Positions 731 to 28,915 of a DNA stretch of 64,000 nt are shown piece by piece. The translations under genes and the position numbers were made by a program. The DNA comes from Candidatus Manganitrophus noduliformans (GTDB taxonomy: Bacteria > Nitrospirota > Nitrospiria > SBBL01 > Manganitrophaceae), in the NCBI RefSeq assembly GCF_012184425.1, contig NZ_VTOW01000001.1, positions 1,860,001 to 1,924,000 on the forward strand, in the 5' to 3' direction. Positions within the stretch are counted from its first letter, which is position 1; each line of letters starts with the position of its first letter. The notes beneath the pieces were generated by a model, which made no database searches, was not told the DNA's origin, and saw nothing but the letters and a program-made list of their open reading frames with translations.

Positions 731-746
731 AGCAATTTATGTTCCA
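731..746 (-). promoter_or_regulatory. sigma-54 (-24/-12) promoter for the divergent sensor gene
   Basis: On the minus strand the sequence reads TGGAACATAAATTGCT. GG and GC are separated by exactly ten bases, and the -12 element is a perfect TTGCT. The known consensus is TGGCAC-N5-TTGCW. Transcription would start near 720, about 95 nt before the ATG at 624. The enhancer-like palindromes at 845-900 lie roughly 100-155 bp upstream, a normal distance for an enhancer-binding activator. Confidence 0.7.
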
Positions 747-844
747 AACACGATCGACTTTTCCAGCGGTCATCGATTCATCGCAATTCTGGGCGTTCGA
801 ATTCAACCTGAAGGTAACACCCGGATTTGTTGTTGATCGACCAT

Positions 845-900
845 TGGGACATTTCCCCCAAGTCGTGGGGCAAATCCCCCATCGTGGGTGAATTGACCCG
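845..900. promoter_or_regulatory. three tandem 16-bp palindromes, predicted enhancer (UAS) array
   Basis: Three sites share the form TGGG-N8-CCC(A/G): TGGGACATTTCCCCCA at 845-860, TGGGGCAAATCCCCCA at 866-881 and TGGGTGAATTGACCCG at 885-900. Starts are 21 and 19 bp apart, about two helical turns, so dimers would bind the same DNA face. The array lies midway between the minus-strand sigma-54 promoter at 731-746 and the plus-strand one at 984-999. The same motif recurs at 8790-8825. The size and symmetry match sites of NtrC-family activators; the activator encoded at 3448-4800 is the obvious candidate. Confidence 0.75.
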
Positions 901-983
901 GAACAATTCCGACGGCTAAAAGTAAACGATTATTTTTCTGCGTATTTACAGGTGAATATATCAATATGCCTCGTCCGGCGCTT

Positions 984-999
984 CGGCATTATATTTGCC
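984..999 (+). promoter_or_regulatory. sigma-54 (-24/-12) promoter of the two-component operon
   Basis: The sequence CGGCATTATATTTGCC has GG at 985-986 and GC at 997-998, separated by ten bases, with GGCAT and TTTGC matching the -24 and -12 elements. The predicted transcription start near 1010 lies downstream of an in-frame ATG at 952. This supports the TTG at 1060 as the true start of the first gene. The enhancer array at 845-900 is 85-140 bp upstream. Confidence 0.72.
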
Positions 1000-1059
1000 C
1001 TTCGCTGTAGCGCTGAAAGGGCATTGAACCTTGGGATAGTGAGGGAGAGAAACATCATC

Positions 1060-1452
1060 TTGAAAAATAAAATCTTAATTGTCGAGGATGAACCGGTTTT
1101 GCAGAAAAACATCGCAATCAGCCTTCGCCGCGAAGGGTATGAAGTGATGGAAGCGGGTAGCGGAGCGGACGCCTGGCGAATATTAGATGTTTCTTCAATC
1201 GACTTTCTTATTTTGGATGTCGGCTTACCCGATTACAACGGCCTTGAGCTATTGAAAGAGATCCGAGAAATCCACCCGCGACTTTCAACCATTGTGATGA
1301 CGGCGCGAGACGCTCCGGAGATACAAGACCGGGCAATCAAATGGGGCGCAGCGGCATTTCTGGCAAAGCCGATTGCGCTTCGCGTATTAAAAGCCAAGAT
1401 CCGGAGCATCGAAGAAAAAAAACATCGCCAACAACCGGAAAGCAAACAATGA
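1060..1452 (+). CDS. stand-alone response regulator receiver protein
   Basis: A single CheY-like receiver domain of 130 residues, starting KNKILIVEDEP after the initiator, with no output domain. The acidic pair sits in VEDE, the phospho-acceptor is Asp53 (FLILDVGLPDY) and the conserved lysine is Lys103 (FLAKPI). I chose the TTG at 1060 because a purine-rich ribosome binding site (gagggagag) ends about ten bases upstream, the domain begins there, and the in-frame ATG at 952 precedes the predicted transcription start. It is first in a five-gene operon, 25 bp before the histidine kinase. It probably acts as a phosphate sink or relay partner for that kinase; this role is inferred from context only. 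Confidence 0.85.
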   Translation: MKNKILIVEDEPVLQKNIAISLRREGYEVMEAGSGADAWRILDVSSIDFLILDVGLPDYNGLELLKEIREIHPRLSTIVMTARDAPEIQDRAIKWGAAAFLAKPIALRVLKAKIRSIEEKKHRQQPESKQ

Positions 1453-1477: not shown

Positions 1478-3436
1478 ATGCCGGCGCTTTCCCGAACTGT
1501 TCAGATGAAGCGGCCGATTTTCCGCAGCCGGCTCTTTTTTAAGTTCATCATCCCCTATATTTTTTTAATCGTGCTCGTTTTTTCCCTCAGCGGATGGCTT
1601 TTCTTCTCCTCTGCAAGCGAGGCACTCGACGCGGAATTGTCCCGACGCTTGATCGGGGTGGCTGATCTGACTTCGAGAACGGTGAATCCCGCTTTCATTT
1701 TGAGAATTCAGCCCGGGGATGAAGACACTTCTCTTTATCGGCTGATCCTGGGGGAGTTGGAAAAGATTCGAGAGGCCGCTCAGGTGAAAGACATCCATCT
1801 TTTTAATCGTCAAAACAGGGTCATCGTCGATTTAGATGGAACGCAAGCGATCGGAGAAGAGGATCTGCTCCTCCAGATCGACGCCTATGAGCTTGGTCAG
1901 GTATGGCGCGGACAGGCGGTCTCGTCCATTCTCTACCGGGGACGGGACGGGCGGTTTTATAAAGCCGGTTATGCCCCCTTAAAGGATGAGCAGGGAGCGA
2001 TCATTGCGGGAGTCGGGGTCGAAGTGGGGGTCGATTTCATGCAGATCATGGATCGGGTCCGCCGCCAGTTCATCGGAATCACCCTTGCCAGCGGAGGATT
2101 GATCCTCCTGATCAGTTTTCTGATCTCCCAATCGATCATCCGTCCGATACAGACACTGACTTCCGCGACCGAGGAGCTTGGAAATGAGGAGGGCTACCCG
2201 ACGGTCGATTTAAATCGAAACGACGAGCTGGGCGACCTCGGAAAACATTTTAACCGGATGATTGATCAGATCCGGACAAAAGACGCATTGCTCCGTCGAA
2301 TGTACGACGAAGAACGAACCCGCGCGGAGGTCCTTGAAGGATACAGCCAAACGCTCCTGAAAAGCATCCCGAGCGGGGTCTTGGGGGTGAACCTGAAAGG
2401 AGAGATCACTTCGTGTAATCCGGCCGCCGAGAAGATACTCGGCCTCTCCTCATTGAGCCTGCTTGATCGGCCGGTTCAGGGGGCGCTCGGCGTCTGCGCT
2501 CCTTTGGAGAAAATCATCATGACCACGGTGACCACCGGAAGGGAGGCGGCCTGGGAAGAATCCCCGGTCGAAGATCCATCGGGGGGGAAACGTTGGATCG
2601 GTGCGATGGCTTCGCCGATTAAAAATGGGGGAGGAAGAGAAATCGGCGCCACCGCGGTTTTTGCCGACCTCACGGAGGTGAAAAACCTGCAAGAGGAGAT
2701 CGCGTTAAAGCGGCAGATGGCGATTCTCGGCGAGCTCTCGGCGGGGATGGCGCATGAGATCCGAAATCCGCTCGCCGCGATTCAGGCGCTCGGCGAGCTG
2801 CTCAGCCGAAGGGTGAAGGGGAGGGCCGGTCGCGATGAGCAAGGTCATGTTCCGTCCGGTGAGGGAGACCTTGAGGAATTGAGCCGGGACCTGGTCGCCG
2901 AGATCAGGCATCTGAACCGCTTCGTCACCGAATTTCTGATTTATGCGCGAATGCCGCTGCTTCGTATTGAAAAGAGCGATCTTCGGGAGATTGTCGATGC
3001 GGCCCTCTCGCTGGCCGCGCCGTCCGGAAGGCCGGAGCGGGTCGTCGTCCGGAATAACATTCCTCCTTCCTTCCCCGAAGCGCCGGTCGATCCGATTGAG
3101 TTCCGGCGGGTCCTCCTCAATTTAATCCAGAACGCATTCCAGGCGATGGGGGAAGAGGGGGAGCTCGGCATTGATGCCGAAATTGTACATCGGTATCTCG
3201 TCCTGCGCGTCTCGGACACCGGCCCCGGGATTTCATCGGAGCACCGGGATAAAATCTTTCGTCCTTTTTTTACGACAAAGCAGGGGGGAACGGGGCTGGG
3301 CCTCGCGATTTCAGAGCGGATCATCCGCGGGCACGGCGGAAGCCTGACCTTTGAAACCGGCGAAGGGAAGGGGACGACCTTCATCGTTCAGATCCCTCTG
3401 CAGGAACCGATAGAAACACCCACCCTGATTTCATAG
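1478..3436 (+). CDS. membrane sensor histidine kinase (HAMP-PAS-HisKA-HATPase)
   Basis: A 652-residue sensor kinase. Membrane segments lie at about 20-44 and 197-217 and flank an extracytoplasmic sensor of about 150 residues. HAMP (about 218-270), a short linker and PAS (about 285-400) follow. The dimerisation and phospho-acceptor helix carries His426 in AHEIRNPLAAI. The ATPase has an N box near 547 (NLIQNAFQAM), DTGPGI, and a G2 box near 604 (GTGLGLAISERI). It sits 11 bp before the sigma-54 activator gene, its likely cognate partner. This is an AtoS/ZraS-like layout and lacks the many-spanning membrane domain of PrsK kinases in exosortase systems. An alternative ATG at 1505 would shorten it by nine residues. 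The signal is unknown. Confidence 0.9.
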   Translation: MPALSRTVQMKRPIFRSRLFFKFIIPYIFLIVLVFSLSGWLFFSSASEALDAELSRRLIGVADLTSRTVNPAFILRIQPGDEDTSLYRLILGELEKIREAAQVKDIHLFNRQNRVIVDLDGTQAIGEEDLLLQIDAYELGQVWRGQAVSSILYRGRDGRFYKAGYAPLKDEQGAIIAGVGVEVGVDFMQIMDRVRRQFIGITLASGGLILLISFLISQSIIRPIQTLTSATEELGNEEGYPTVDLNRNDELGDLGKHFNRMIDQIRTKDALLRRMYDEERTRAEVLEGYSQTLLKSIPSGVLGVNLKGEITSCNPAAEKILGLSSLSLLDRPVQGALGVCAPLEKIIMTTVTTGREAAWEESPVEDPSGGKRWIGAMASPIKNGGGREIGATAVFADLTEVKNLQEEIALKRQMAILGELSAGMAHEIRNPLAAIQALGELLSRRVKGRAGRDEQGHVPSGEGDLEELSRDLVAEIRHLNRFVTEFLIYARMPLLRIEKSDLREIVDAALSLAAPSGRPERVVVRNNIPPSFPEAPVDPIEFRRVLLNLIQNAFQAMGEEGELGIDAEIVHRYLVLRVSDTGPGISSEHRDKIFRPFFTTKQGGTGLGLAISERIIRGHGGSLTFETGEGKGTTFIVQIPLQEPIETPTLIS

Positions 3437-3447
3437 CGGAGTGAACG

Positions 3448-4800
3448 ATGATTCGGATGTTGATTGCGGAAGACAAAGAGGCGATGCGGCGGTCGTTGGT
3501 CCGTCTTTTCTCTGAAAAAGGACATGAAGTCATCGAAGCGGGGAGCGGCGCGGAGGCGCTGGAGCGCTTCAACGAGACGGAGATTGATCTGGTGATTACC
3601 GATCTTCAGATGGGGGAGGTCGGCGGACTCCAGGTCCTTTGCGAGGTCAAAAAAAGGTCGCCCCAGACCCCGGTGTTGATGGTCACGGCGTTCGGAACGG
3701 TGGAGACCGCGGTGGAAGCGATGCGTCAGGGGGCGTTCGACTACATCCTCAAGCCATTTTCACTGACGGAAATCGAAGCACGGGTGGAGAAGGCGTTGGA
3801 GCAACGAAGACTGCTGACGGAGAACCGGTACCTGAAAGAAATACTCAATCACACCGTCGGACGGATGGTGGGCCGCTCGGAGCGGATGCAGCAAGTCTAT
3901 CGGCTCATTGAAAAGGTCGCTCCCTATCCCTCCCCTGTGTTGGTCCTCGGAGAGACCGGAACGGGAAAGGAGCTGGTCGCCAGAGAGACCCACCGGATGA
4001 GCGCGCATCATGCCGGCCCGTTCATCGCGGTCAATTGCGGGGCGATCCCTGAGAATCTCCTGGAGAGCGAGCTCTTCGGATATGAGAAGGGGGCGTTTAC
4101 GGGCGCCGCGGCCCAGAAGAAAGGCTGGCTGGAGTTGGCCGAGGGGGGGACCTTATTTCTCGACGAGATCGGCGAGCTTCCCCTCTCCCTTCAGGTCAAG
4201 CTCCTGCGGTTTTTACAGGAGCGGGAAATTCAGCGGGTGGGGGGAACAAAAACCATCCGGGTCGATGTGCGTTTGATCGCCGCGACGAACCGCGATTTAA
4301 AAGAGGAAATTCAAGCGCACCGCTTTCGAGAAGATCTCTATTACCGAATCCGGGTGATTGAAATCCATCTCCCGCCGCTCAGAGAAAGGCATGGAGATAT
4401 ACCGGAACTGACGGCTTACTTCTTGCAAAAGTTTAGTCGTGAGCTTCATAAGAAGCTCGAAATGGCCCCGGAAGCCCTCGATCTGCTCTCCCTCTATCCA
4501 TGGCCCGGGAACGTGCGGGAGCTGGAGAACGTCATCGAACGGGCCGCCGTTCTTTCGGAGGGGGAGGTCATTCGAGCGGGCGATCTTCCCCCGGAACTCC
4601 AGCTGGTTTCAACGCCGACGGAATCGAACGGGGAGGGGGCCGAATTGGGCCTGACCGAGCGCTTGGAGATGCTAGAGCGTGACATCATCAAGAAGACACT
4701 GGAGGAGACGGCGGGAAATCAGACACAGGCGGCCAGGATGCTCCGCCTGCACCGCAGCTCGCTCCAGTACAAGATGCGCAAGTATGGGCTGTTGGATTAG
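3448..4800 (+). CDS. sigma-54-dependent response regulator (NtrC family activator)
   Basis: A full-length 450-residue enhancer-binding protein. The receiver domain has Asp52 as acceptor ([10 protein letters not shown]) and a conserved KPF near its end. The AAA+ domain has Walker A GETGTGKE near 168-175, the sigma-54-contacting loop GAFTGA near 215-220, and Walker [11 protein letters not shown] Fis-type helix-turn-helix closes the protein ([20 protein letters not shown]). The intact GAFTGA loop means it should activate sigma-54 RNA polymerase. It follows its presumed kinase by 11 bp. The palindromes at 845-900 and 8790-8825, beside sigma-54 promoters, are its likely targets; the first would make its own operon autoregulated. 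Confidence 0.92.
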
Positions 4801-5677
4801 CGGAGCCATTCATGGACTTCTGCGGTGCGGCGTTCTTTTTGGTCTGATATGGGGGAGCATGACGATCTCCGTCGGAGATTCCGCCGCGGCGGAGCGATCC
4901 GACGCGCTCATCTCGGAGATCCGCGCCCTCGATACGACGTTCCAGCAGGTGTTGAATCATCTCGATCGGTCGGCGCGGCAATCGGAGGAGATCTCTCGTG
5001 AAGTGCAGGCGCTCAAGTCGCAAAGGAGAGCCGGCGTTCTCGATCAGATCCGCCTCGAAGCGCTTCTCTCCCGCTTGAGGGAAATGCTCCTTGATCGGCG
5101 AGAGTTAAAGAAATTGGAGCAGACGCTCCAATCCGAGCGGGAGAAAAAGGCCCAGCTTCTCTACGATCTGATCGGAGAGGAGATCGCGTCGCTTCTTCGC
5201 GAGGCGGAAGCATCCGTGCGACGGGGGGAGCAGGAGCGGGCCGACGAAATTCATCGCTCGATGCTGGCTAAAATGCAAATGAGAGAGAATCTGCGGCGAC
5301 CCCGATCGCTTCATATCACCGCGCTTCCGAAGATTGAGCTGCCCGACATGGAGGAAGCCTCCCTGATCGAGATGAGGGAGATGGCGGTTTTACTTCGAAA
5401 TGATGCGGAAACACTCGATAAAAAAAGAAAAGAAATAGAAGAAGAGAGACGGGTTCTTCGGGAGGAGCTCAAGATCAAACAGACCCTGGCGCGGGTTCAG
5501 GGATTCCCCAGAGGAATTGAAAAAGAGCCGATCGACCGCCAGATTCGAGCCCTGGAAGAGGGCCTGGCGGTCCTCGATGAGGCGGTGGAGCGTTACAAGG
5601 AGCGGGTGGGGGCTTTATTCACGCTATCGGACGAGATGCTAGAGAAATTGAAACGGGAAGAAGATCGTCTAAAGTAA
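4784..5677 (+). CDS. exported coiled-coil protein of unknown function
   Basis: The in-frame ATG at 4784, inside the last codons of the preceding activator gene, gives 297 residues. A hydrophobic stretch of residues about 10-27 (LLRCGVLFGLIWGS) and a possible AAA-E cleavage site suggest export. The rest is strongly helical and charged, with long heptad-like runs rich in Glu, Arg, Leu and Lys (EEISREVQALKSQRRAGVL, EEERRVLREELKIKQTL). No catalytic motif is visible. The overlap upstream and the 11-bp gap to the TPR lipoprotein downstream place it in the same operon. A scaffold or periplasmic partner of the TPR lipoprotein is a guess from position only. Confidence 0.7.
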   Translation: MGCWISGAIHGLLRCGVLFGLIWGSMTISVGDSAAAERSDALISEIRALDTTFQQVLNHLDRSARQSEEISREVQALKSQRRAGVLDQIRLEALLSRLREMLLDRRELKKLEQTLQSEREKKAQLLYDLIGEEIASLLREAEASVRRGEQERADEIHRSMLAKMQMRENLRRPRSLHITALPKIELPDMEEASLIEMREMAVLLRNDAETLDKKRKEIEEERRVLREELKIKQTLARVQGFPRGIEKEPIDRQIRALEEGLAVLDEAVERYKERVGALFTLSDEMLEKLKREEDRLK

Positions 5678-5688
5678 GGGCGAAGAAG

Positions 5689-6363
5689 ATGTTTCAGCGC
5701 GTGCTTCGAACAATATTACGATTCGGACTCTTTTCCGGGAGATGCAAAGCCGCCGTTTTGTTTTGCTCATGTATGGTTCTCGCCTCGTGCGCTTCCAGCC
5801 TGCACCAGCGGGGGCTGGAGGCGACCGTACGGGAAGATCATGCCGACGCGGTTCGCTTTTACCTGGAACATTTGAAAGACCACCCGGAGGATCTCCGCGC
5901 CAGAAACGATCTCGGGGTCTCCTATCTTCGGAGCGCGCAGTATGATCTCGCCTTTCTGGAATTTCAGAAGGTTCTCGCCGCCGATCCCCGGTATGTCCGG
6001 GCTTATTACAATATTGCATTAGTCTATAATTTCAAAGGTCTCCTCGACGAGGAGTTCAATGCCTATCAGAAGGCTTTGGAAATCGACCCGGATCACCTTC
6101 CCACCCGATTAAACCTTGCCCATCTGCATATCGAACGGGGAGAGACCACAAAGGCAAAAGAGATTTATGAAGCAGTCCTCCACGCACATCCGAATCAGCC
6201 GCGTGCCCTCTACAACCTCGCCTTGCTCTATGATCAGGAAGGAAAGGGAAAGGAAGCCGTGGCGTTGCTAGAGCGATTTCTAGGCCAGCAGCGGGATCCT
6301 CGATGGAGAGAAGAGGCTGAGGAACATCTTACACGATTAAAGCAGTTCTCCTCCGCCCCGTAG
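5689..6363 (+). CDS. TPR-repeat lipoprotein
   Basis: A 224-residue protein with a signal peptide ending in a lipobox (VLASC at about residues 31-35). About four to five tetratricopeptide repeats follow, for example DLGVSYLRSAQYDLAFLEFQ, NIALVYNFKGLLDEEFNAYQ and NLALLYDQEGKGKEAVALLE. It is last in the two-component operon. TPR lipoproteins serve as periplasmic adaptors in polysaccharide secretion systems; AlgK paired with the AlgE porin is one example. An AlgE-like barrel is encoded at 24273-25598, so an assembly role is conceivable, but this protein is much shorter than AlgK and the link is only inference. The stop codon lies inside a small GCCCC/GGGGC hairpin (6355-6367), a possible weak terminator. 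Confidence 0.85.
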   Translation: MFQRVLRTILRFGLFSGRCKAAVLFCSCMVLASCASSLHQRGLEATVREDHADAVRFYLEHLKDHPEDLRARNDLGVSYLRSAQYDLAFLEFQKVLAADPRYVRAYYNIALVYNFKGLLDEEFNAYQKALEIDPDHLPTRLNLAHLHIERGETTKAKEIYEAVLHAHPNQPRALYNLALLYDQEGKGKEAVALLERFLGQQRDPRWREEAEEHLTRLKQFSSAP

Positions 6364-6455: not shown

Positions 6456-7337
6456 TTATTCCATCGTGGTGAGGGAGACCGCTTCTTCGAACGGCATCGG
6501 GTTGATCCGGAGCAAATCTCTCATCAGAGAAAGGTCGACCGAATGTGAAGTGGTAATGATGTCCACACGCTCGGCGTTCAGGCCCCATTGTGGGTGGATA
6601 AGCGATGCCATCCAGGCGAGCGGGTAGACGGCTGACTTCGGAATGTGGACGAAGCGACATCGATCTTTCCGGATCAAGCGACAAAACCGCCGCGCGAATT
6701 CGTTGAACGAGACGAGATCATTGCCTGCCACCGAGATTGCTCGGCCTGCCGAGGCCGGCGTTTCAAGCGCCTTGCAAAGAGCGGCGCAAACATCATCGAC
6801 ATGGATCGGCTGGCTGGTGTAGGTTCCATCTCCAATGACCGGAATGCATCTCGCCCTTCTCCAAATCCGCAAGGTTCTCCCGAGGTCTTTCGCCCCCGGG
6901 CCGACAATCGTATCGGGCCGGAGAATGGTCCACTCTAAGCCGGAGTGCATTACGGCCTCTTCGGCCTCGATCTTGGAGCGAGCATAAGGGCCTTTCTTTG
7001 GAAACAAAACGCAGAGAGAAGAAACAAAAATAAAGCGTCTAATTCCATTGGCGCGGGCCGCGGCAATGAGGTTTCTCGTTCCGACCGTTGTGGCGTCGAA
7101 GTTTCCCGCCGCGTAGGCTCGATTCGGCGTTGCCCCCCCGATGTGGAGAATCGCATCACAGCCTTTGGTTGCCGGGAGCAAGCCGTCGATATCAAGAAGA
7201 TCCCCCTTTGCGGTTCCGACTTGGTTCCCGAAGGGGTCATTCCTTGTCAATGCGGTAATATCGAGGCGGGTTTGATAAAGGTCGATGAATCGCGATCCGA
7301 CGAATCCCGTCCCCCCGGTCAGAAAAATCCGATTCAT
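6456..7337 (-). CDS. NAD-dependent epimerase/dehydratase (extended SDR)
   Basis: A 293-residue extended short-chain dehydrogenase. The N-terminal Rossmann motif is GGTGFVGSRF. The catalytic Ser region lies in FIFVSSLCVLF and the YxxxK motif is YARSKIEAEE. A PDTIVGPG-like segment follows, typical of nucleotide-sugar epimerases and 3-beta-HSD-like members. The ATG overlaps the end of the CDP-alcohol phosphatidyltransferase gene by four bases, so the two are translationally coupled. The substrate cannot be read from sequence; a sugar nucleotide or a lipid-linked ketone would both fit the neighbourhood. Confidence 0.85.
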   Translation of the reverse strand: MNRIFLTGGTGFVGSRFIDLYQTRLDITALTRNDPFGNQVGTAKGDLLDIDGLLPATKGCDAILHIGGATPNRAYAAGNFDATTVGTRNLIAAARANGIRRFIFVSSLCVLFPKKGPYARSKIEAEEAVMHSGLEWTILRPDTIVGPGAKDLGRTLRIWRRARCIPVIGDGTYTSQPIHVDDVCAALCKALETPASAGRAISVAGNDLVSFNEFARRFCRLIRKDRCRFVHIPKSAVYPLAWMASLIHPQWGLNAERVDIITTSHSVDLSLMRDLLRINPMPFEEAVSLTTME

Positions 7338-7969
7338 CGGACGGAAAGCCTGTATGCAGTGATGAGTCTTTCCATCAATGCAAAGGTGGTGAGGATTGAG
7401 AGAAGAGCGAAAAGGGGAAGAAACTGCTGGAACGGCGTCAGTGTGACGAGGAGCGTATAACGCGCGGCGCGGAGTGAGAGGCCATCGCTGACCTGTTGAC
7501 CGAGAATCGCTTCGATATTAGAAGAGAGGCCGGTAGAGATCAGCATTGTCGCCATCGTGTAGATTCCCAGGGGAAGAGGGACGGGTGTGAAGAGGAGATA
7601 GAGCGATAAGATCATCGCGTCGCTGATCTTATCGGCGGTCCGGTCGAAGAGTTTACCAAGCGGCGTCTCGACGTTCGACGCCCGGGCGACGGTGCCGTCG
7701 ATGAAATCGCAGAGCCCGTTGAAGATAATGAAGCCTGCGGCGAGATAGTAGTCATGAACGCTGAAAGCGTAAACGACGCCGACGAGGAAGGCCAGACCCG
7801 CGGCCGTGACGGTGTTGGGAGAGATTGCCAGGGCGACGAAGGGCCGGGCGAGTCTCCGCTTCAAAGAAGAAATTGCGGTCTCAAGTAAAGGAAGCCTCGC
7901 GATGCGTCCGCGCAGGGATACCACCTGCCGATGAGAAGGGGGTAAAAGAGAATGCTTCGTTTTGATCAT
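7334..7969 (-). CDS. CDP-alcohol phosphatidyltransferase family protein
   Basis: A 211-residue membrane enzyme with the complete family signature: DFIDGTVAR, eight residues, G, three residues, D (GKLFD), three residues, D (RTAD). The four aspartates bind the divalent metal and the CDP group. Several hydrophobic segments flank it. The family transfers a phosphatidyl or phospho-alcohol group from a CDP-alcohol to a second alcohol, giving phosphatidylglycerol phosphate, phosphatidylinositol phosphate or archaetidyl-type products; the exact acceptor cannot be assigned. It lies 16 bp after the UPF0016 gene and overlaps the epimerase gene by four bases, forming a three-gene operon. Confidence 0.88.
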   Translation of the reverse strand: MIKTKHSLLPPSHRQVVSLRGRIARLPLLETAISSLKRRLARPFVALAISPNTVTAAGLAFLVGVVYAFSVHDYYLAAGFIIFNGLCDFIDGTVARASNVETPLGKLFDRTADKISDAMILSLYLLFTPVPLPLGIYTMATMLISTGLSSNIEAILGQQVSDGLSLRAARYTLLVTLTPFQQFLPLFALLSILTTFALMERLITAYRLSVR

Positions 7970-7985: not shown

Positions 7986-8261
7986 TTATTGCCGAATCGT
8001 TTGAGCCACCATCCAAAGGCCGATGAGGATGAAGCCGCATCCCGCGGCGGCTTTCAGCGCCGTGGGGGAGAGGATCGAGGCGAGCTTCGCGCCGGCGACG
8101 ACCGCAATGCCGGTGCTCAGGACAAGCGCTCCGGCGGCAGCAAGAAATATCGCGGTTTTGCTTGCATTCCGATCGGCCGCGTAGAGAAGGGTTGCAAGCT
8201 GCGTCTTATCCCCCAATTCGGCCAAAAAGACGGTCACAAAGACGATGATTAGCTTTTGCAT
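7986..8261 (-). CDS. UPF0016/GDT1-family cation exporter, single-domain form
   Basis: A 91-residue membrane protein with three hydrophobic helices and the family motif ELGDKTQLAT. Characterised GDT1/TMEM165/MneA-type members exchange Mn2+ or Ca2+ for protons. This is a half-size form with one motif copy, which would have to dimerise; many bacterial members carry two copies or have a second gene alongside, and none is seen here. The ATG at 8261 is preferred over a GTG at 8267 because GGAG sits five bases upstream of it. It begins the operon with the CDP-alcohol phosphatidyltransferase and epimerase. Confidence 0.85.
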   Translation of the reverse strand: MQKLIIVFVTVFLAELGDKTQLATLLYAADRNASKTAIFLAAAGALVLSTGIAVVAGAKLASILSPTALKAAAGCGFILIGLWMVAQTIRQ

Positions 8262-8324
8262 CTCCACTCCGCATCAATTAACAAAAGTCAATAAGGTTGA
8301 ATCAGATCTGCAGGCGCCGTTCGA

Positions 8325-8657
8325 TTATCGATGATGCTCTCGACTGCGAGCGTCATCGCGGTCGTCATCATCCCGGGTCAAGATTCCTCGATCGTCGCGG
8401 CCCCGGTTTCGATGAGAGCGCCTTCGATTTTCCTCAATGGGCCGATCCTCCGAACGATCGTCGTTAGAGGCACCCCTTCGGCGCTTTAACTCCAATGAAG
8501 ATTCGGACGGCGACTGATTGGCGTCAACCAAGCCGCTTCCCCATCGTGTTGAGCCGGATGAGGTGCCGTCCAGAATGGCCGAACAAGAAAGGGCCGACCC
8601 GGCAAAAAAAATCACAAGACCGATGGAAAAGAGCGTGGATGTCGCGATTCTGATCAT
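8325..8657 (-). CDS. small lipoprotein with Arg/Asp-rich tail, sigma-54 controlled
   Basis: A 110-residue protein with a signal peptide ending in a lipobox-like ALSC (about residues 22-25). A serine- and glycine-rich segment follows, then a highly charged tail of alternating Arg and Asp (RSEDRPIEENRRR, DDDDRDDARSRE). No known domain is recognised. A GAGG ribosome binding site lies upstream of the ATG. A consensus sigma-54 promoter at 8698-8713 would give a leader of about 30 nt, and two enhancer-like palindromes sit 80-115 bp beyond that. The promoter quality is the main reason to believe this gene is real. It may be a surface or periplasmic polyelectrolyte, but the function is unknown. Confidence 0.68.
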   Translation of the reverse strand: MIRIATSTLFSIGLVIFFAGSALSCSAILDGTSSGSTRWGSGLVDANQSPSESSLELKRRRGASNDDRSEDRPIEENRRRSHRNRGRDDRGILTRDDDDRDDARSREHHR

Positions 8658-8697: not shown

Positions 8698-8713
8698 TGC
8701 AACCAGAGTGCCA
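8698..8713 (-). promoter_or_regulatory. consensus sigma-54 promoter for the small lipoprotein
   Basis: On the minus strand the sequence reads TGGCACTCTGGTTGCA, an exact match to TGGCAC-N5-TTGCA. It is the best sigma-54 promoter in the window. Transcription would start near 8687, about 30 nt before the ATG at 8657. The palindromes at 8790-8805 and 8810-8825 lie 80-115 bp upstream, the usual enhancer distance. Confidence 0.85.
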
Positions 8714-8789: not shown

Positions 8790-8825
8790 TGGGAGTTTTC
8801 ACCCAGTGCTGGGGCAAATGCCCCA
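8790..8825. promoter_or_regulatory. two tandem 16-bp palindromes, predicted enhancer (UAS) pair
   Basis: TGGGAGTTTTCACCCA (8790-8805) and TGGGGCAAATGCCCCA (8810-8825) are both TGGG-N8-CCCA, and their starts are exactly 20 bp apart. The second extends to a perfect 18-bp palindrome, CTGGGGC-AAAT-GCCCCAG (8809-8826). This is the same motif as the array at 845-900. The pair is well placed for the minus-strand sigma-54 promoter at 8698-8713 and about 270 bp from the plus-strand one at 9092-9107, so it may serve both. Confidence 0.78.
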
Positions 8826-9091
8826 GAAGAATACCGGTCTTTTAAGTTTCTAAAGAGGATGGATCTGTTCCTTCACGCTTTCGAAGGAGTGAAATCGTGC
8901 GACCACTGCCGGATTCCCGGCACCCCCCGCCGGTAATCCGTTTATTCGGGGACGAAGGCCGGGCCAAAGGAGGTGCGGCGTTTGAAGCGGATCACACGAT
9001 CAGCGTTTTCTTTCTTTTACTAAGATGTCGCGTGGTCTTTTTGAGCGAGGTAATCGATCCCTAGGACGATAATTTATCCCGTTTAGGAGAC

Positions 9092-9107
9092 CGGCATGCT
9101 GTTTGCT
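9092..9107 (+). promoter_or_regulatory. sigma-54 (-24/-12) promoter of the DUF4382-like lipoprotein
   Basis: CGGCATGCTGTTTGCT has GG at 9093-9094 and GC at 9105-9106 with ten bases between them, a GGCAT -24 and a TTTGCT -12 element. Transcription would begin near 9118. An in-frame ATG at 9103 lies inside the promoter and so cannot be the start; the ATG at 9229, with a good ribosome binding site, fits. The rest of 8714-9228, apart from the palindromes, shows no other clear feature. Confidence 0.65.
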
Positions 9108-9228: not shown

Positions 9229-10329
9229 ATGAAAAACGTTTTGAGAGCTTGGCTATTGATCACGATCGGGCTGACGTTCGCCGCTTGCGGCGGGGGCGGC
9301 GAGGGGGGATCGGACGGCAGTGGAGGCGGCGCCGGGAACCCGACGTTGGGAATCTTATCGATTCAAAAATTGGGGGCGACGGCGATCCCCAATGCGAGTG
9401 TGTCTTCGAAACCGGTTTTTGCGTCGAATCTTTTCGGAAAGGGATGGCGCTTGGGTCCGCGCCAGGCCTTCGCGCAGGCGGCGCCCTGCGTTTCCGATGC
9501 GCCGACCTCTTTTGTGGTTTCCGGCGGCAAGGTGTGGATCAACCAAGCCTATGCCATTGTCGATGAAGTCGAATTCAACCGGGAGCCTTCGACCGCGACG
9601 AGCCCCGAGTTCGGCCCCTTCGCGCTCGACCTGACCAATACCGACGCCAACGTCGGAGAGGCGATCACGGTCGATGTGCCGGAGGGGAATTACAGCAGCG
9701 TGAAGTATCGGATCAAACGGATCGAAGATGACCTGAACCAGCCGATTAAAAACGTCGCCGATGTCGGCGTGTTTAGAGGTAAACTCGTCGGCGAGCCGAA
9801 GCGCCGGCCGAGTATCTGGATCGAGGGGGTGATCGGCGTCGGATCGGACGCCCAAGGCTTCTCCTCTTGCAGGGAATTTATCTTTGTCGCCGATCATCGT
9901 TGGGAGGTCCGGGTTCCGTTCCAAAGTATCTCCGCAGGATCGACGGCGTCCAATGCGGTTCTCCTCTTCGATCTTGAAGCGGCATTCACGGCGGGGATGG
10001 CGGCTTCGGGCGCCACCGCGCAAAGCCTCGCGGGAGAGGTCGGCGGGGGGAACGAAGACAACATGGGGGCGCAATACCTCGACGGCCGGACAAAAGATGA
10101 AGACCACGGCACCCCGATCGCGAAGGCGATCACGGCGGCGCTTCCGGGGAACGTGAAGGTCTTCTCGCAGTCGGTGGCCGCTCCAAGGGGATTCGACGAC
10201 AACCCGTCCGTTTCCGATCTGGTGAACAGCACCGCCCCGGCCGGGACGACCGTCATCGACGACAGCGCCAACCGGGTGAGCGGCGACGACAATCCCTCGG
10301 TTTCGGATCTCGCCGAAACCGCCGGGTAA
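9229..10329 (+). CDS. DUF4382-like surface lipoprotein, paralog of 20252-21274
   Basis: A 366-residue lipoprotein: signal peptide, lipobox FAAC at about 17-20, then a glycine-rich tether. The body contains SPEFGPFALDLT, VPEGNYSSVKYRIKR and a WIEGVIGVG segment, resembling the beta-sandwich DUF4382 family, though the assignment is approximate. The C-terminus carries the nonapeptide DDNPSVSDL twice, separated by about 28 residues. The paralog at 20252 shares the body and ends with one copy (DDNPSASDL). The start follows AGAAGGA with proper spacing. A sigma-54 promoter lies about 120 nt upstream. The gene stands at the left edge of the exopolysaccharide cluster and may be an anchored surface partner; no biochemical function is known to me. 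Confidence 0.82.
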   Translation: MKNVLRAWLLITIGLTFAACGGGGEGGSDGSGGGAGNPTLGILSIQKLGATAIPNASVSSKPVFASNLFGKGWRLGPRQAFAQAAPCVSDAPTSFVVSGGKVWINQAYAIVDEVEFNREPSTATSPEFGPFALDLTNTDANVGEAITVDVPEGNYSSVKYRIKRIEDDLNQPIKNVADVGVFRGKLVGEPKRRPSIWIEGVIGVGSDAQGFSSCREFIFVADHRWEVRVPFQSISAGSTASNAVLLFDLEAAFTAGMAASGATAQSLAGEVGGGNEDNMGAQYLDGRTKDEDHGTPIAKAITAALPGNVKVFSQSVAAPRGFDDNPSVSDLVNSTAPAGTTVIDDSANRVSGDDNPSVSDLAETAG

Positions 10330-10524: not shown

Positions 10525-11802
10525 ATGAAAAAATTGATGGTCTACTCGCACGACACCTTCGGCCTGGGGAACATTCGGCGGATGCTCTCGATCTGCAAGT
10601 ACCTGATCGATTCCATCCCAGATCTCTCGATTCTGATTGTCTCCGGCTCTCCGATGGTCCACACCTTCCGGATCCCGCAACGGCTCGACTACATCAAACT
10701 TCCCTGCCTTCGCCGGACGGAGCGGGAAGGTTATTCGGTGAAGTATCTCGGCACCGATATGGCCGAGACGATGCGGCTTCGGTCCGAGCTGATCCTTTCG
10801 GCGGTCACCCACTTCAGGCCCGATCTTCTCCTGGTCGACAAGAAGCCGTTCGGCGTGAAAAAAGAATTAAAGGGGGTGCTCAACTATTTGAAGATCCATC
10901 TTCCCGAAACCAAACAGGTCCTCTTGCTCCGGGATATTCTCGACAGTCCGGAAGCGACGATCAAAGTCTGGAAGCAGAATCGATATCAAGAGGCGATCCG
11001 CCTCTTCTACGATCTGGTCCTGGTGGTCGGCTCGTCCGAGGTCTTCGATCCCAGGAAAGAATATCGGATGCCCCCCTCCGTGTCCGGGAAGGTGCAGCTT
11101 TGCGGGTATATCCGACGGGAGGCCGGCCTCGCCGGGCGCGATGCCGTCCGGAAGGAGCTTCAGTTGACTGACGAGCGATTGGTTCTGGTCACGCCGGGAG
11201 GGGGAGAGGACGGATATCGTCTTGTAAAGGCCTACCTCTCCGCTCTGGAGCGCCTCCCCACCGGTCTGAACATCCGCAGTCTGATTATCTGCGGGCCGGA
11301 GATGCCGGAGATTCAGCGAAAACAGCTGTTCCAAGCGGCGGCCGGGGGACCGTCGGTTCAAATGACCGAGTTTACAAACGACCTGATGAGCTATATGGAA
11401 GCGGCCGACGTCGTTCTCTCGATGGCCGGATACAACACTGTCTGCGAGATCCTTTCTTTGCAGAAGCGGGCGATCGTGGTCCCCCGGGTTCACCCGGTAA
11501 AGGAGCAGCTTCTTCGGGCCGAACGGATGGCGCGACTGGGACTTCTTCGGACAATCCATCCGGATCGCCTTACGCCGCAATCGCTGGCTCAAGGACTCTT
11601 GGAGGAGCTCGATCTGCAGGGGACCGGACCTGTCCCCCGATTCCCTCTGGAAATGAACGCGCTCCCCCAGATCCGGGAACGGATCATGCGGCTTTTATCC
11701 GAAGCCGAATCGGACGAGAGTGCCGACCGACCGGTATACCGACGCGATCGTCGTGGTCCGGCTCAGGCGGGAGATCATGTTCAACCTATTTCGATTCTAT
11801 AG
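10525..11802 (+). CDS. MurG-like glycosyltransferase (COG4671-type)
   Basis: A 425-residue GT-B enzyme. The N-terminal domain begins KLMVYSHDTFGLGNIRRML, with the glycine loop of MurG-like folds. The C-terminal donor domain contains LVTPGGGEDGY (about residue 230) and MAGYNTVCEILSLQKRAIVV (about 297), the glycosyltransferase-28-like motif. It is closely related in layout to residues 1-390 of the fusion protein at 17990-19981. A purine-rich binding site (GGAAGAG) precedes the ATG. It is the first gene of the exopolysaccharide cluster and ends three bases before the next glycosyltransferase. The sugar donor is unknown. It is likely a cytoplasmic enzyme acting on a lipid- or protein-linked acceptor. 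Confidence 0.85.
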   Translation: MKKLMVYSHDTFGLGNIRRMLSICKYLIDSIPDLSILIVSGSPMVHTFRIPQRLDYIKLPCLRRTEREGYSVKYLGTDMAETMRLRSELILSAVTHFRPDLLLVDKKPFGVKKELKGVLNYLKIHLPETKQVLLLRDILDSPEATIKVWKQNRYQEAIRLFYDLVLVVGSSEVFDPRKEYRMPPSVSGKVQLCGYIRREAGLAGRDAVRKELQLTDERLVLVTPGGGEDGYRLVKAYLSALERLPTGLNIRSLIICGPEMPEIQRKQLFQAAAGGPSVQMTEFTNDLMSYMEAADVVLSMAGYNTVCEILSLQKRAIVVPRVHPVKEQLLRAERMARLGLLRTIHPDRLTPQSLAQGLLEELDLQGTGPVPRFPLEMNALPQIRERIMRLLSEAESDESADRPVYRRDRRGPAQAGDHVQPISIL

Positions 11803-11805
11803 ACC

Positions 11806-13152
11806 ATGATGAAAAAAGTTTCTAAAGATGGAAGCGACCCATTTGAAATCGCCTACATCATCAAGGAATTCCCGCGCCTCTCGGAGACATTTATCTCGAA
11901 TGAGATTTATCAGCTCGAACAAATCGGGATGAGGCTGAGACTCTTCTCGGTGAAGAGGCCGGGGATACGGAAGAATCACGGAACGGTCGATCGAATTAAA
12001 TCGCCGATCATTTATCTGCCGGAGGCGAGCTCCCTCTCGGAGAGTCATTTTATCCGGTGGCTTTGGGTCCATTTCCCGAAGTTTATCAAAGACCACGTTC
12101 GCCTTTTTAGATTGCGTCCGCGTCATTATCTTCGGACGTTGAAAGAGGCGGTTCAAATGAGCCTCCGCTACCGGACCTGGTTTTTCGACCGACCCAAGAA
12201 GGTCTTCATCAAAGAATTTCTTCAGGCGGGGTTTATCGCGCGGCAGGTGATCGAGGCTGGAAATATACGGCACCTGCACGCCCATTTCTGCCACGGTGCA
12301 ACGACCATCGCGATGTTCGCCGGCCGGCTCAGCGGGATTCCGTTCAGCTTCACCGCCCACGCCAAAGATATTTATCTGCAGAAGCTGAATCCGGGAGACC
12401 TTCTGCAAATCAAAATAAAAGAGGCGGAGTTTGTGGTGACCTGCACGGAGGCGAATCGGATCTATCTCAAGAGTCTCTCTCCGGAGAGCAACTCGGTCCA
12501 CACAATTTACCATGGATTGGACACAACCCTCTTTTCACCGGAAGAGGAGAAGGGATCTCCCCTCGTCACGCCGCTGATTCTCTCCGTCGGCCGCTTTGTC
12601 GAGAAGAAAGGTTTTGTTCATCTGGTCAGGGCGTGTGCGATTCTGAAAGAACGCGGCCATCCCTTCCGATGCAGGATCATCGGGGAGGCGGACGAGCAGA
12701 GCCCGCTGCTGAAAGAACTGATCGGGGATTTGGGGCTTGAAAAGATTGTTTCCTTGGAAGAGGCGGTGACCCACGAGGCGTTGAAGCGGATTTATGCGGA
12801 GTGCGCCGTCTTCGTTCTCCCCTGCCAGATCGTTGAGAACGGCGATCGGGACGGCATTCCGAATGTCCTGGTGGAAGCGATGTCGATGCGGCGGCCGGTC
12901 GTCTCCACGATGATCTCGGGGATTCCGGAGCTGATCGAGCATCGGCGCAACGGCTTGTTGGTCCCTCAGAAGGACCCCACCGAATTGGCCCTGGCGCTTG
13001 AAACGCTCCTCAAAGATCCCGACCTGAGAACGCTGTTGGGCACCGCCGCCCGCAGAAGGGTCTGCACACACTTTGATTCCACAAAGACAACGCAGGCGCT
13101 GAGAGCATTGTTTCTCTCGTCGATCAAAGGGGGGAGGCTTCGACCTTTATGA
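11806..13152 (+). CDS. family 4 glycosyltransferase
   Basis: A 448-residue GT-B retaining glycosyltransferase. The N-terminal half includes IIKEFPRLSETFISNEIYQL and HLHAHFCHGATTIAMFAG. The C-terminal half shows LSVGRFVEKKGFVHLVRA and the donor-binding E-x7-E region around DGIPNVLVEAMSMRRPVV and GIPELIEHRRNGLLV. This combination (SETF at the start, NGDRDGIPNVLVEAM near the end) is typical of colanic-acid/WcaL-like exopolysaccharide transferases. It begins three bases after the preceding gene and overlaps the heparinase-like gene by four bases, so the genes are coupled. Confidence 0.9.
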   Translation: MMKKVSKDGSDPFEIAYIIKEFPRLSETFISNEIYQLEQIGMRLRLFSVKRPGIRKNHGTVDRIKSPIIYLPEASSLSESHFIRWLWVHFPKFIKDHVRLFRLRPRHYLRTLKEAVQMSLRYRTWFFDRPKKVFIKEFLQAGFIARQVIEAGNIRHLHAHFCHGATTIAMFAGRLSGIPFSFTAHAKDIYLQKLNPGDLLQIKIKEAEFVVTCTEANRIYLKSLSPESNSVHTIYHGLDTTLFSPEEEKGSPLVTPLILSVGRFVEKKGFVHLVRACAILKERGHPFRCRIIGEADEQSPLLKELIGDLGLEKIVSLEEAVTHEALKRIYAECAVFVLPCQIVENGDRDGIPNVLVEAMSMRRPVVSTMISGIPELIEHRRNGLLVPQKDPTELALALETLLKDPDLRTLLGTAARRRVCTHFDSTKTTQALRALFLSSIKGGRLRPL

Positions 13153-19981: not shown

Positions 19982-20135
19982 TCTTCCCGTATGGAATGAG
20001 TGGAGGATGGAACAATGCGGAGAAACCGGCGCGCCTGCCGGAATTCCATCGGGAACGGCCGCCAACAACGTCTTTTTCATGGTGCGAAATCGGCGGAGCG
20101 CCGCTTGGCGGATAGTTTCACTCCCGTTTTTGTAG

Positions 20136-20151
20136 GGGCATGGGATTTGCT
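20136..20151 (+). promoter_or_regulatory. possible sigma-54 promoter of the second DUF4382-like lipoprotein
   Basis: GGGCATGGGATTTGCT has GG (20137-20138) and GC (20149-20150) ten bases apart. It closely resembles the promoter of the paralog (GGCATG, then TTTGCT), at a similar distance from the start codon (about 115 against 135 bp). No TGGG-N8-CCCA site is seen nearby, and the sequence lies in a degenerate GTAGGGGC...CCCC palindrome of a dispersed type, so the match could be incidental. Confidence 0.4.
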
Positions 20152-20251
20152 CCCGACCCCTGAACGAGAGCGTGCGAGGCTAAAGAGGACAATGTTGAAG
20201 ACTTTGCCGCAATCGGAAGAGGTCAAACAGATGAAACCAGGGAGGAGAATA

Positions 20252-21274
20252 ATGAAAAATCCAATTAAGTTGTGGCCGATCGTCGCACTCTTTTTCGGTC
20301 TGGTTGCGTGTGGCGGAGGCGGCGGAGCGGCTGGAGGAGGGGGTAATGCCGCGGGGAGCGAGAATCCTTCCGGGCCGACGCTCGGGATGACGGCCGTTCC
20401 TCAAGCGGCCGGCGCTTCGGCGTCCGTTTTTTCCAAGGTTCTGGTTCAGGCCGGGCGTTTCTTTGCCGGCGGCCAGGCCTTGGCGCAGAGCAGTTGCCCG
20501 CCGGAAAACTTCAAACATCAATTTACGCTGATCGATGGGACCCTCTGGCTCTCTCAGGCGTATGTCATTGCGGACGAAGTCGAGTTCCGGCGGCAACCCT
20601 CGTCATTTACCTCGCCGGAATTCGGCCCTTTTGCATTGGATTTAACCGGGACCGATCCGAATGTGCCCGAAGCAATCTCCATCTCGGTTCCGACTGAAAA
20701 TTACAATGGAGTGAAGTTCAAGATCAAACGGCTTGAAGATGATCGCGCCGAACAACCGAAGAATGTCTCAAACCTTCCCGCCTTCCTTGAAAAACTCGGT
20801 TTCAGCGGCAACGACGACCGGCGGCCGAGCGTCTGGATTCAGGGGGTCATCGGTTTGGGAGCGCCGGGGAGCTTCACGCGCTGCACCCCCTTCACCTTTG
20901 TGACCGACCATCGATGGCAAGTGACGGTGCCGTTCTCCAGCGGTGCGACGGCCGATCCCAACACGGTGGACGCCGTGATCTTTTTTGATCTGGAAGGGGC
21001 GTTCCAATCGTCAGGCGTTACGGCCGCGGAGTTAGAAGCGGAGGTGGGACAGCCCTCCTCCAAAAAGCCGCTCGGGGCGGGATTCCTGGATGGACGGACC
21101 AAGGATGACCGGTTCGGCACGCCGAAGGCCCGCCAATTGGCCGTAGCGCTTCCGACCCGAATGCAGCTCTTTGTCCAGCAGGGCGGGACCTTTTCGGCCG
21201 ATCCGACGATCCGCCCCGACGCCACGATCGTTACGGATGACAATCCCTCGGCGTCGGATCTGCAGGGGACTTAG
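20252..21274 (+). CDS. DUF4382-like surface lipoprotein, paralog of 9229-10329
   Basis: A 340-residue lipoprotein: signal peptide, lipobox LVAC, then a Gly-rich tether (CGGGGGAAGGGG). The body shares SPEFGPFALDLT, EVEFRRQPS, YNGVKFKIKRLEDD and WIQGVIGLG with the protein at 9229-10329. It ends with one DDNPSASDL motif where the paralog has two. The ATG at 20252 follows GGAGGAGAA. The two paralogs bracket the glycosyltransferase block, suggesting a joint role at the cell surface or a duplication that carried the promoter. The function is unknown. Confidence 0.82.
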   Translation: MKNPIKLWPIVALFFGLVACGGGGGAAGGGGNAAGSENPSGPTLGMTAVPQAAGASASVFSKVLVQAGRFFAGGQALAQSSCPPENFKHQFTLIDGTLWLSQAYVIADEVEFRRQPSSFTSPEFGPFALDLTGTDPNVPEAISISVPTENYNGVKFKIKRLEDDRAEQPKNVSNLPAFLEKLGFSGNDDRRPSVWIQGVIGLGAPGSFTRCTPFTFVTDHRWQVTVPFSSGATADPNTVDAVIFFDLEGAFQSSGVTAAELEAEVGQPSSKKPLGAGFLDGRTKDDRFGTPKARQLAVALPTRMQLFVQQGGTFSADPTIRPDATIVTDDNPSASDLQGT

Positions 21275-28899: not shown

Positions 28900-28915
28900 T
28901 GGCATTTGATTTGCT
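28900..28915 (+). promoter_or_regulatory. sigma-54 promoter of the formamidase/urt operon
   Basis: TGGCATTTGATTTGCT differs from the TGGCAC-N5-TTGCW consensus at one listed position. GG is at 28901-28902 and GC at 28913-28914. The start of transcription would be near 28926, leaving a leader of about 220 nt before the formamidase gene. Sigma-54 control fits nitrogen-limitation induction of amide and urea scavenging. Confidence 0.75.

Follow-up and report, generated by a model that had tools for sequence, protein, structure and literature searches.

The window, that is, the whole 64,000-nt stretch of Candidatus Manganitrophus noduliformans DNA that was analysed, begins with two regulatory systems that are oriented divergently. 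On the minus strand, positions 1-624 encode the N-terminal 208 residues of a sensor kinase, HKdiv, which comprises 448 residues in full (C1:1859278-1860624). It is followed, beyond the window edge, by bEBPdiv, an NtrC-type regulator of 470 residues (C1:1857861-1859273) that contains a receiver domain (PF00072), a sigma-54 AAA+ domain (PF00158) and a Fis helix-turn-helix (PF02954), all above cut-offs. The plus strand carries an operon composed of RR1, a stand-alone receiver-domain response regulator with a probable TTG start (1060-1452; PF00072, orthologue alignment), a second sensor kinase, HK2 (1478-3436; HAMP, PAS, HisKA and HATPase), an NtrC/AtoC-type activator, bEBPop (3448-4800), a coiled-coil protein (4808-5677) and a TPR-repeat lipoprotein-like protein (5689-6363). 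The sensor region of HKdiv forms a single Cache/extracytoplasmic-PAS-like domain in the AlphaFold model (mean pLDDT 79), which resembles WalK (4ywz; VIA Z 14.1, 2.6 Å over 141 residues) and also CitA, a fold that leaves the ligand unspecified. The sigma-54 contact loop reads GAFTDA in all nine bEBPdiv copies and GAFTGA in the three bEBPop copies that were read; GAFTDA is one of the loop variants that PMC4641369 lists as permitting activation. The recognition helices, RDTLRYR in bEBPdiv (RHTLRYR in one copy) and RSSLQYK in bEBPop, are conserved within each protein and differ between them. One rpoN gene was found in the genome (C2:119087-119569, 193.5 bits to PF04552), together with approximately 37 AAA+ bEBP matches of at least 200 bits. 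A scan of the genome contigs for bEBPop returned only relatives of approximately 50% identity or less, which were left out of the comparisons, and a scan of the phylum located bEBPdiv only in the order of the source organism and in two relatives of 46% identity.

Three palindromes of the form TGGG-N8-CCC(A/G) (motif A) are located between the two systems on the plus strand: TGGGACATTTCCCCCA (845-860), TGGGGCAAATCCCCCA (866-881), which is the strongest, and TGGGTGAATTGACCCG (885-900). Their positions agree with the preliminary description, and their start-to-start distances of 21 and 19 bp correspond to approximately two helical turns. The motif quoted in that description, TGGGGCAAATGCCCCA, consists of the exact letters at 8810-8825, which belong to a second array in the window. 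The first array is flanked by two sigma-54 -24/-12 promoters, TGGAACATAAATTGCT on the minus strand (731-746), predicted to drive the divergent HKdiv-bEBPdiv operon, and CGGCATTATATTTGCC on the plus strand (984-999), predicted to drive the RR1-HK2-bEBPop operon. Both have the GG-N10-GC form that had been described for them, with the GG at 127 bp (minus) and 112 bp (plus) from the array centre. Using a consensus score built with approximate sigma-54 weights, the minus-strand element ranks among the best 6 in the 64 kb and the plus-strand element among the best 16; the latter scores only 19.5 on these approximate weights when taken alone. Both promoters are conserved in relatives. In the alignment of the window intergenic region with two copies from genome G005 and one from G003, the array and both -24/-12 elements are retained while the spacers diverge. 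The minus-side promoter is conserved as TGGAATATGAATTGCT, i.e. TGGAA(C/T)AT(A/G)AATTGCT, and the plus-side promoter as CGGCA[TC]CATATTTGCG, i.e. CGGCA(T/C)(T/C)ATATTTGC(C/G).

The second motif-A array comprises TGGGAGTTTTCACCCA (8790-8805, +) and TGGGGCAAATGCCCCA (8810-8825, +), both conserved in alignment. The sigma-54 promoter TGGCACTCTGGTTGCA (8698-8713, -), 95 bp from the centre of this array, is predicted to drive ORF 8325-8657 and probably also the GDT1, CDP-alcohol transferase and epimerase genes (8267-6459). On the plus strand, the sigma-54 promoter CGGCATGCTGTTTGCT (9092-9107), 285 bp from the centre, lies upstream of a lipoprotein-like ORF (9229-10329) and a glycosyltransferase cluster; its form CGGCAT(G/A)(C/T)TGTTTGCT is retained in 6/6 aligned copies. 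The products of the window cluster include GT28 and GT1 glycosyltransferases, a heparinase II/III protein, an APH-type protein, an ABC exporter and an alginate-export porin, as well as the GDT1 cation antiporter, the CDP-alcohol transferase and the epimerase. Because of this gene content, the production and export of extracellular polysaccharide is the likely output. The GDT1-family divalent cation/proton antiporter (PF01169) is short (7986-8267, -) and lies inside the predicted regulon. The GDT1 family includes manganese transporters, which would be relevant if the organism oxidises manganese.

A second type of element, motif B, was observed between this array and the 9092 promoter as tandem TGCCGGAATTCCGGCA-like dyads 21 bp apart (8907-8943, +). 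Another motif-B-like pair (20016-20051, +) is located 119/99 bp upstream of the sigma-54-like element GGGCATGGGATTTGCT (20136-20151, +), which precedes a lipoprotein paralogue, and the dyad spacing across the motif-B pairs is 20-21 bp. Since the second-array centre is 285 bp away and motif B is closer, the 9092 promoter may not depend on bEBPdiv. Motif B is a lead as a candidate second-tier site for bEBPop, and this assignment stays tentative because matches in a pattern search of 18 genomes were equally common where bEBPop is absent. The lipoprotein-like proteins encoded at 9229-10329, 20240-21274 and L118:13075-14193 each lie downstream of a sigma-54-like promoter; the first two have no Pfam or NCBIfam match, and the third has no match in a scan of Pfam only. 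Neither motif A nor motif B forms an array upstream of two strong sigma-54-like sites in the window, 28900(+) and 61294(-); for 28900-28915(+) (TGGCATTTGATTTGCT), which is presumably the target of another bEBP, this holds within 320 bp.

The motif statistics distinguish single sites from tandem arrays. In the 5.17 Mb genome, the loose single pattern TGGGN8CCCR shows no enrichment, with 299 matches (159+140) compared with 304 (155+149) in the control, and single sites were left unused for this reason. Tandem pairs yielded 10 matches (6+4) and none (0+0) in the control. The loose single motif has no predictive value, so the part of the proposed refutation test that rests on it would have misled. 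The genome contains seven exact copies of the strict core TGGGKNAWWTNMCCCA, all of them within arrays, and an order-3 Markov simulation of 1.5 Mb produced one site of at least 15 bits and zero pairs. When a matrix was trained only on sites from the sister family (f5), the three window sites ranked 1, 3 and 4 in the 64 kb, with 866-881 at the top, and the second-array sites (8790 and 8810) ranked 2 and 6.

The expectation that such arrays recur near GG-N10-GC promoters was borne out by pattern searches, from which the genome-wide promoter statistics derive; the promoters mostly lie 80-130 bp from the tandem pairs. Among 18 arrays and four more that were tested, almost every one has its centre 80-130 bp from a strong -24/-12 element; by chance, approximately 0.02 matches with a score of at least 20 are expected per 360-nt search. 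The exceptions are distances of 175-190 bp in G011:C32 and G016, and the IS-disrupted array C11:11209, which has none. The register of the tandem dyads across arrays is 19-23 bp.

Elsewhere in the genome, the array at C11:10402 is located 115 bp from the sigma-54 element TGGCATACACTTTGCG before a secreted-protein ORF, and the array at C11:32618 lies between genes for a divergent outer-membrane protein and a lipoprotein paralogue. Where the divergent gene encodes an outer-membrane protein (C11 and G002), a strong element of its own (TGGCATAGCAATTGCG or TGGCACGGCAATTGCG) accompanies it at 116-129 bp from the array. Two loci that were first single-mismatch matches (C3:676 kb and C2:976 kb) proved on inspection to be tandem arrays. 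At C3:676247, the element TGGCACGGGCCTTGCT has the full score (24.0) at 111 bp, and at C2:976231, TGGCATCCCTATTGCT scores 22.0 at 115 bp; the genes that follow encode single-pass membrane proteins of 76-82 aa. A third such gene follows bEBPdiv and has one good motif-A site and TGGCATCCGGTTTGCT; in G005 and G003, this same gene, with an array and a promoter, likewise follows bEBPdiv. Members of this ~76-82-aa single-pass family are encoded at C1:1857.4 kb (L119 ~7220-7450, -), L190 ~870-1097 (-), L194 ~874-1122 (-) and L148 ~1075-1317 (-), and every one of these genes is preceded by a strong sigma-54 promoter together with a motif-A site or array. The predicted regulon is small and comprises the bEBPdiv operon, the second two-component operon, the small membrane proteins and the envelope/polysaccharide locus. 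In the sister family, arrays precede glycosyltransferase/heparinase clusters. The variant array of G017 (L165:10870-10905), TGGGGCATTTCACTGA-N4-TCAGTGAAATGCCCCA, consists of two half-degenerate sites that together form a single large inverted repeat; a sigma-54 promoter with a glycosyltransferase gene downstream lies 105 bp away. A diverged second copy of much of the window cassette occupies C11:4575-40000 (L117, L118; ~63-91% protein identity). Here the divergent sensor, the arrays and the RR1 paralogue are now kept apart by insertion elements, whose transposase ORFs lie at L117:7486-8775 and 11339-12121, with the result that the operon copy seems severed from its enhancer.

The phyletic distribution of the array points to its activator. 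Across 58 relatives, the array co-occurs with bEBPdiv (6/1/1/50, Fisher 1.2e-6) more closely than with bEBPop (4/3/9/42, Fisher 0.038), in tests that ignore phylogeny. In the sister family, G011, G013, G016 and G017 contain bEBPdiv (63-66% identity) and arrays, in the variant form in G017, without bEBPop, and their motif-A sites lie 35 to ~560 bp from the bEBPdiv gene. The only genome of this family with bEBPop, G014 (69% identity), has neither bEBPdiv nor the array, and G009, G012 and G015 contain none of the three. Seven further class-level genomes with a bEBPop orthologue (RSSLQYK helix) and without bEBPdiv also have no array. In G002, the array is present and bEBPdiv was not found in an assembly that is fragmented, as is that of G001; no array is near the second bEBPdiv copy of G016 (C40). 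The array, its promoters, their conservation and fixed spacing, the regulon and the co-occurrence with bEBPdiv are shown by the sequences and their comparison. On these grounds, the likely binder of the array is bEBPdiv, which is encoded with the divergent sensor, rather than bEBPop.

The preliminary description had assigned the array to bEBPop, as an activator that controls its own operon and also drives the divergent sensor; bEBPdiv could not be considered because its gene lies just outside the window. It is true that bEBPop is a complete, operon-encoded GAFTGA activator and that within genus g1 no array occurs in the absence of bEBPop. The assignment is nevertheless improbable, since the four sister-family genomes named above have arrays without a bEBPop orthologue, and in eight genomes that encode bEBPop at 57-69% identity and with an unchanged RSSLQYK helix, no array lies in its vicinity. 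D. vulgaris presented a parallel ambiguity, and there EMSA identified the divergent EBP DVU2956, not the operon-encoded DVU2960, as the binder (PMC4641369). Phyletic and neighbourhood evidence both favour bEBPdiv, and bEBPop was set aside as the best reading. The autoregulated divergent switch that had been proposed consequently stands on the sensor side (HKdiv-bEBPdiv), and the operon side probably forms a downstream, second tier in a cascade, because the motif follows bEBPdiv and not bEBPop.

We consider it about equally improbable that both activators, or another of the ~37 bEBPs of the genome (AAA+ matches of at least 200 bits), use the array and that the divergent position of bEBPdiv is incidental: in D. 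vulgaris, several EBPs can share similar motifs (PMC4641369), but the array is confined to genomes with bEBPdiv, G002 apart, and adjoins bEBPdiv in two families, and the recognition helices of bEBPdiv, R(D/H)TLRYR, and bEBPop differ. The palindromes are GC-rich, and 600-1100 contains two weak sigma-70-like sites (shuffles mean 1.0), yet a repressor operator, sigma-70 element or transcription terminator has a very low probability, as no terminator-like site was found and the terminator and sigma-70 readings, which gained no support, were dropped, while the tandem spacing and the distance to the -24/-12 elements are typical of enhancers and the same arrangement recurs at unrelated genes on several contigs.

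We therefore favour, with a probability of roughly 0.8, the reading that the array is a shared enhancer of bEBPdiv that would act on both divergent sigma-54 promoters. For this reading, we infer binding, phosphorylation, looping, direction of control and signal as follows. The Cache-type sensor HKdiv, once stimulated, would phosphorylate bEBPdiv. Dimers of bEBPdiv would then occupy two or three TGGGGnAWWTnCCCCA palindromes approximately two helical turns apart, oligomerise and reach RNA polymerase-sigma-54 at both promoters by DNA looping over ~110-130 bp on each side. On the minus side, this would result in positive autoregulation of HKdiv-bEBPdiv. On the plus side, RR1-HK2-bEBPop-coiled coil-TPR would be induced in a feed-forward manner, which would place the second NtrC-type system downstream as a cascade. 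Motif A may also serve the second divergent pair (8698/9092), with the cation antiporter and lipid/sugar enzymes as output in one direction and the lipoprotein, glycosyltransferase cluster, ABC exporter and alginate-export porin in the other, and further the small single-pass membrane protein genes elsewhere. In sum, the most likely picture is that of a sensor-controlled activator that turns on its own operon together with a second regulatory operon and probable slime-export genes.

Subsequently, bEBPop may work at motif B, whose two pairs (8907-8943 and 20016-20051) lie closer to the lipoprotein/glycosyltransferase promoters. An extended version of the scheme is conceivable, although we rate it as somewhat doubtful: a bEBP relay of two tiers, each using a different enhancer code, in which bEBPdiv (GAFTDA, motif A) would autoactivate and induce bEBPop, which would in turn act through motif-B arrays on the lipoprotein/exopolysaccharide promoters. 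With both enhancers stacked on one divergent promoter pair at 8790-9107, such a relay could produce an ordered, AND-like extracellular-polymer programme.

For a lineage in which regulatory genetics is nearly absent, these results point to a regulator, a DNA motif and a small number of targets in the control of envelope and polysaccharide genes. They also suggest that operon membership is a poor guide to the binding activator, as a gene just outside the window appears to explain the array better than the visible one. Searches of the openly accessible literature returned no description of the motif or the regulon, and the main text on the Desulfovibrio sigma-54 regulome (PMC4641369) does not contain the TGGGG/CCCCA motif. 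The layout is already known; the bEBPdiv activator, the DNA motif and the gene set appear undescribed.

Compared with characterised families, HK2 and bEBPop most closely match AtoS and AtoC, respectively, over their full length in NCBIfam. HK2 is below the AtoS equivalog cut-off (264 of 646 bits) and bEBPop below that of AtoC (NF008469; 497 of 714 bits), and no acetoacetate genes were noted in the cassette. bEBPop is also below the curated cut-off of NtrC (TIGR01818; 441 of 558.6 bits). The PrsK/PrsR (XrtA/PEP-CTERM) sigma-54 systems are alike in that an NtrC-type regulator is tied to exopolysaccharide genes; however, bEBPop does not reach the PrsR cut-off (TIGR02915; 425.5 of 502.6 bits), and for HK2 and the TPR protein the shortfall against the PrsK and PrsT cut-offs is large. 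In D. vulgaris, DVU2956-DVU2957/2960 share with the present locus two candidate EBPs, one divergent and one in the operon, that flank a single sigma-54 control region, and the divergent DVU2956 was shown to bind (PMC4641369). Unlike bEBPdiv, DVU2956 has no N-terminal domain and does not belong to a two-component system (PMC4641369). Besides DVU2956, the closest precedent is ZraSR/zraP of E. coli and Salmonella, where an NtrC-type regulator acts between divergent sigma-54 promoters, one of which belongs to its own operon (PMC4987338). In the present layout, bEBPdiv would likewise control divergent sigma-54 promoters, including that of its own sensor-regulator operon. bEBPop itself falls short of the cut-off for ZraR (408 of 760 bits), and the other side of the locus described here is, in contrast to zraP, a second two-component operon that encodes a bEBP of its own.
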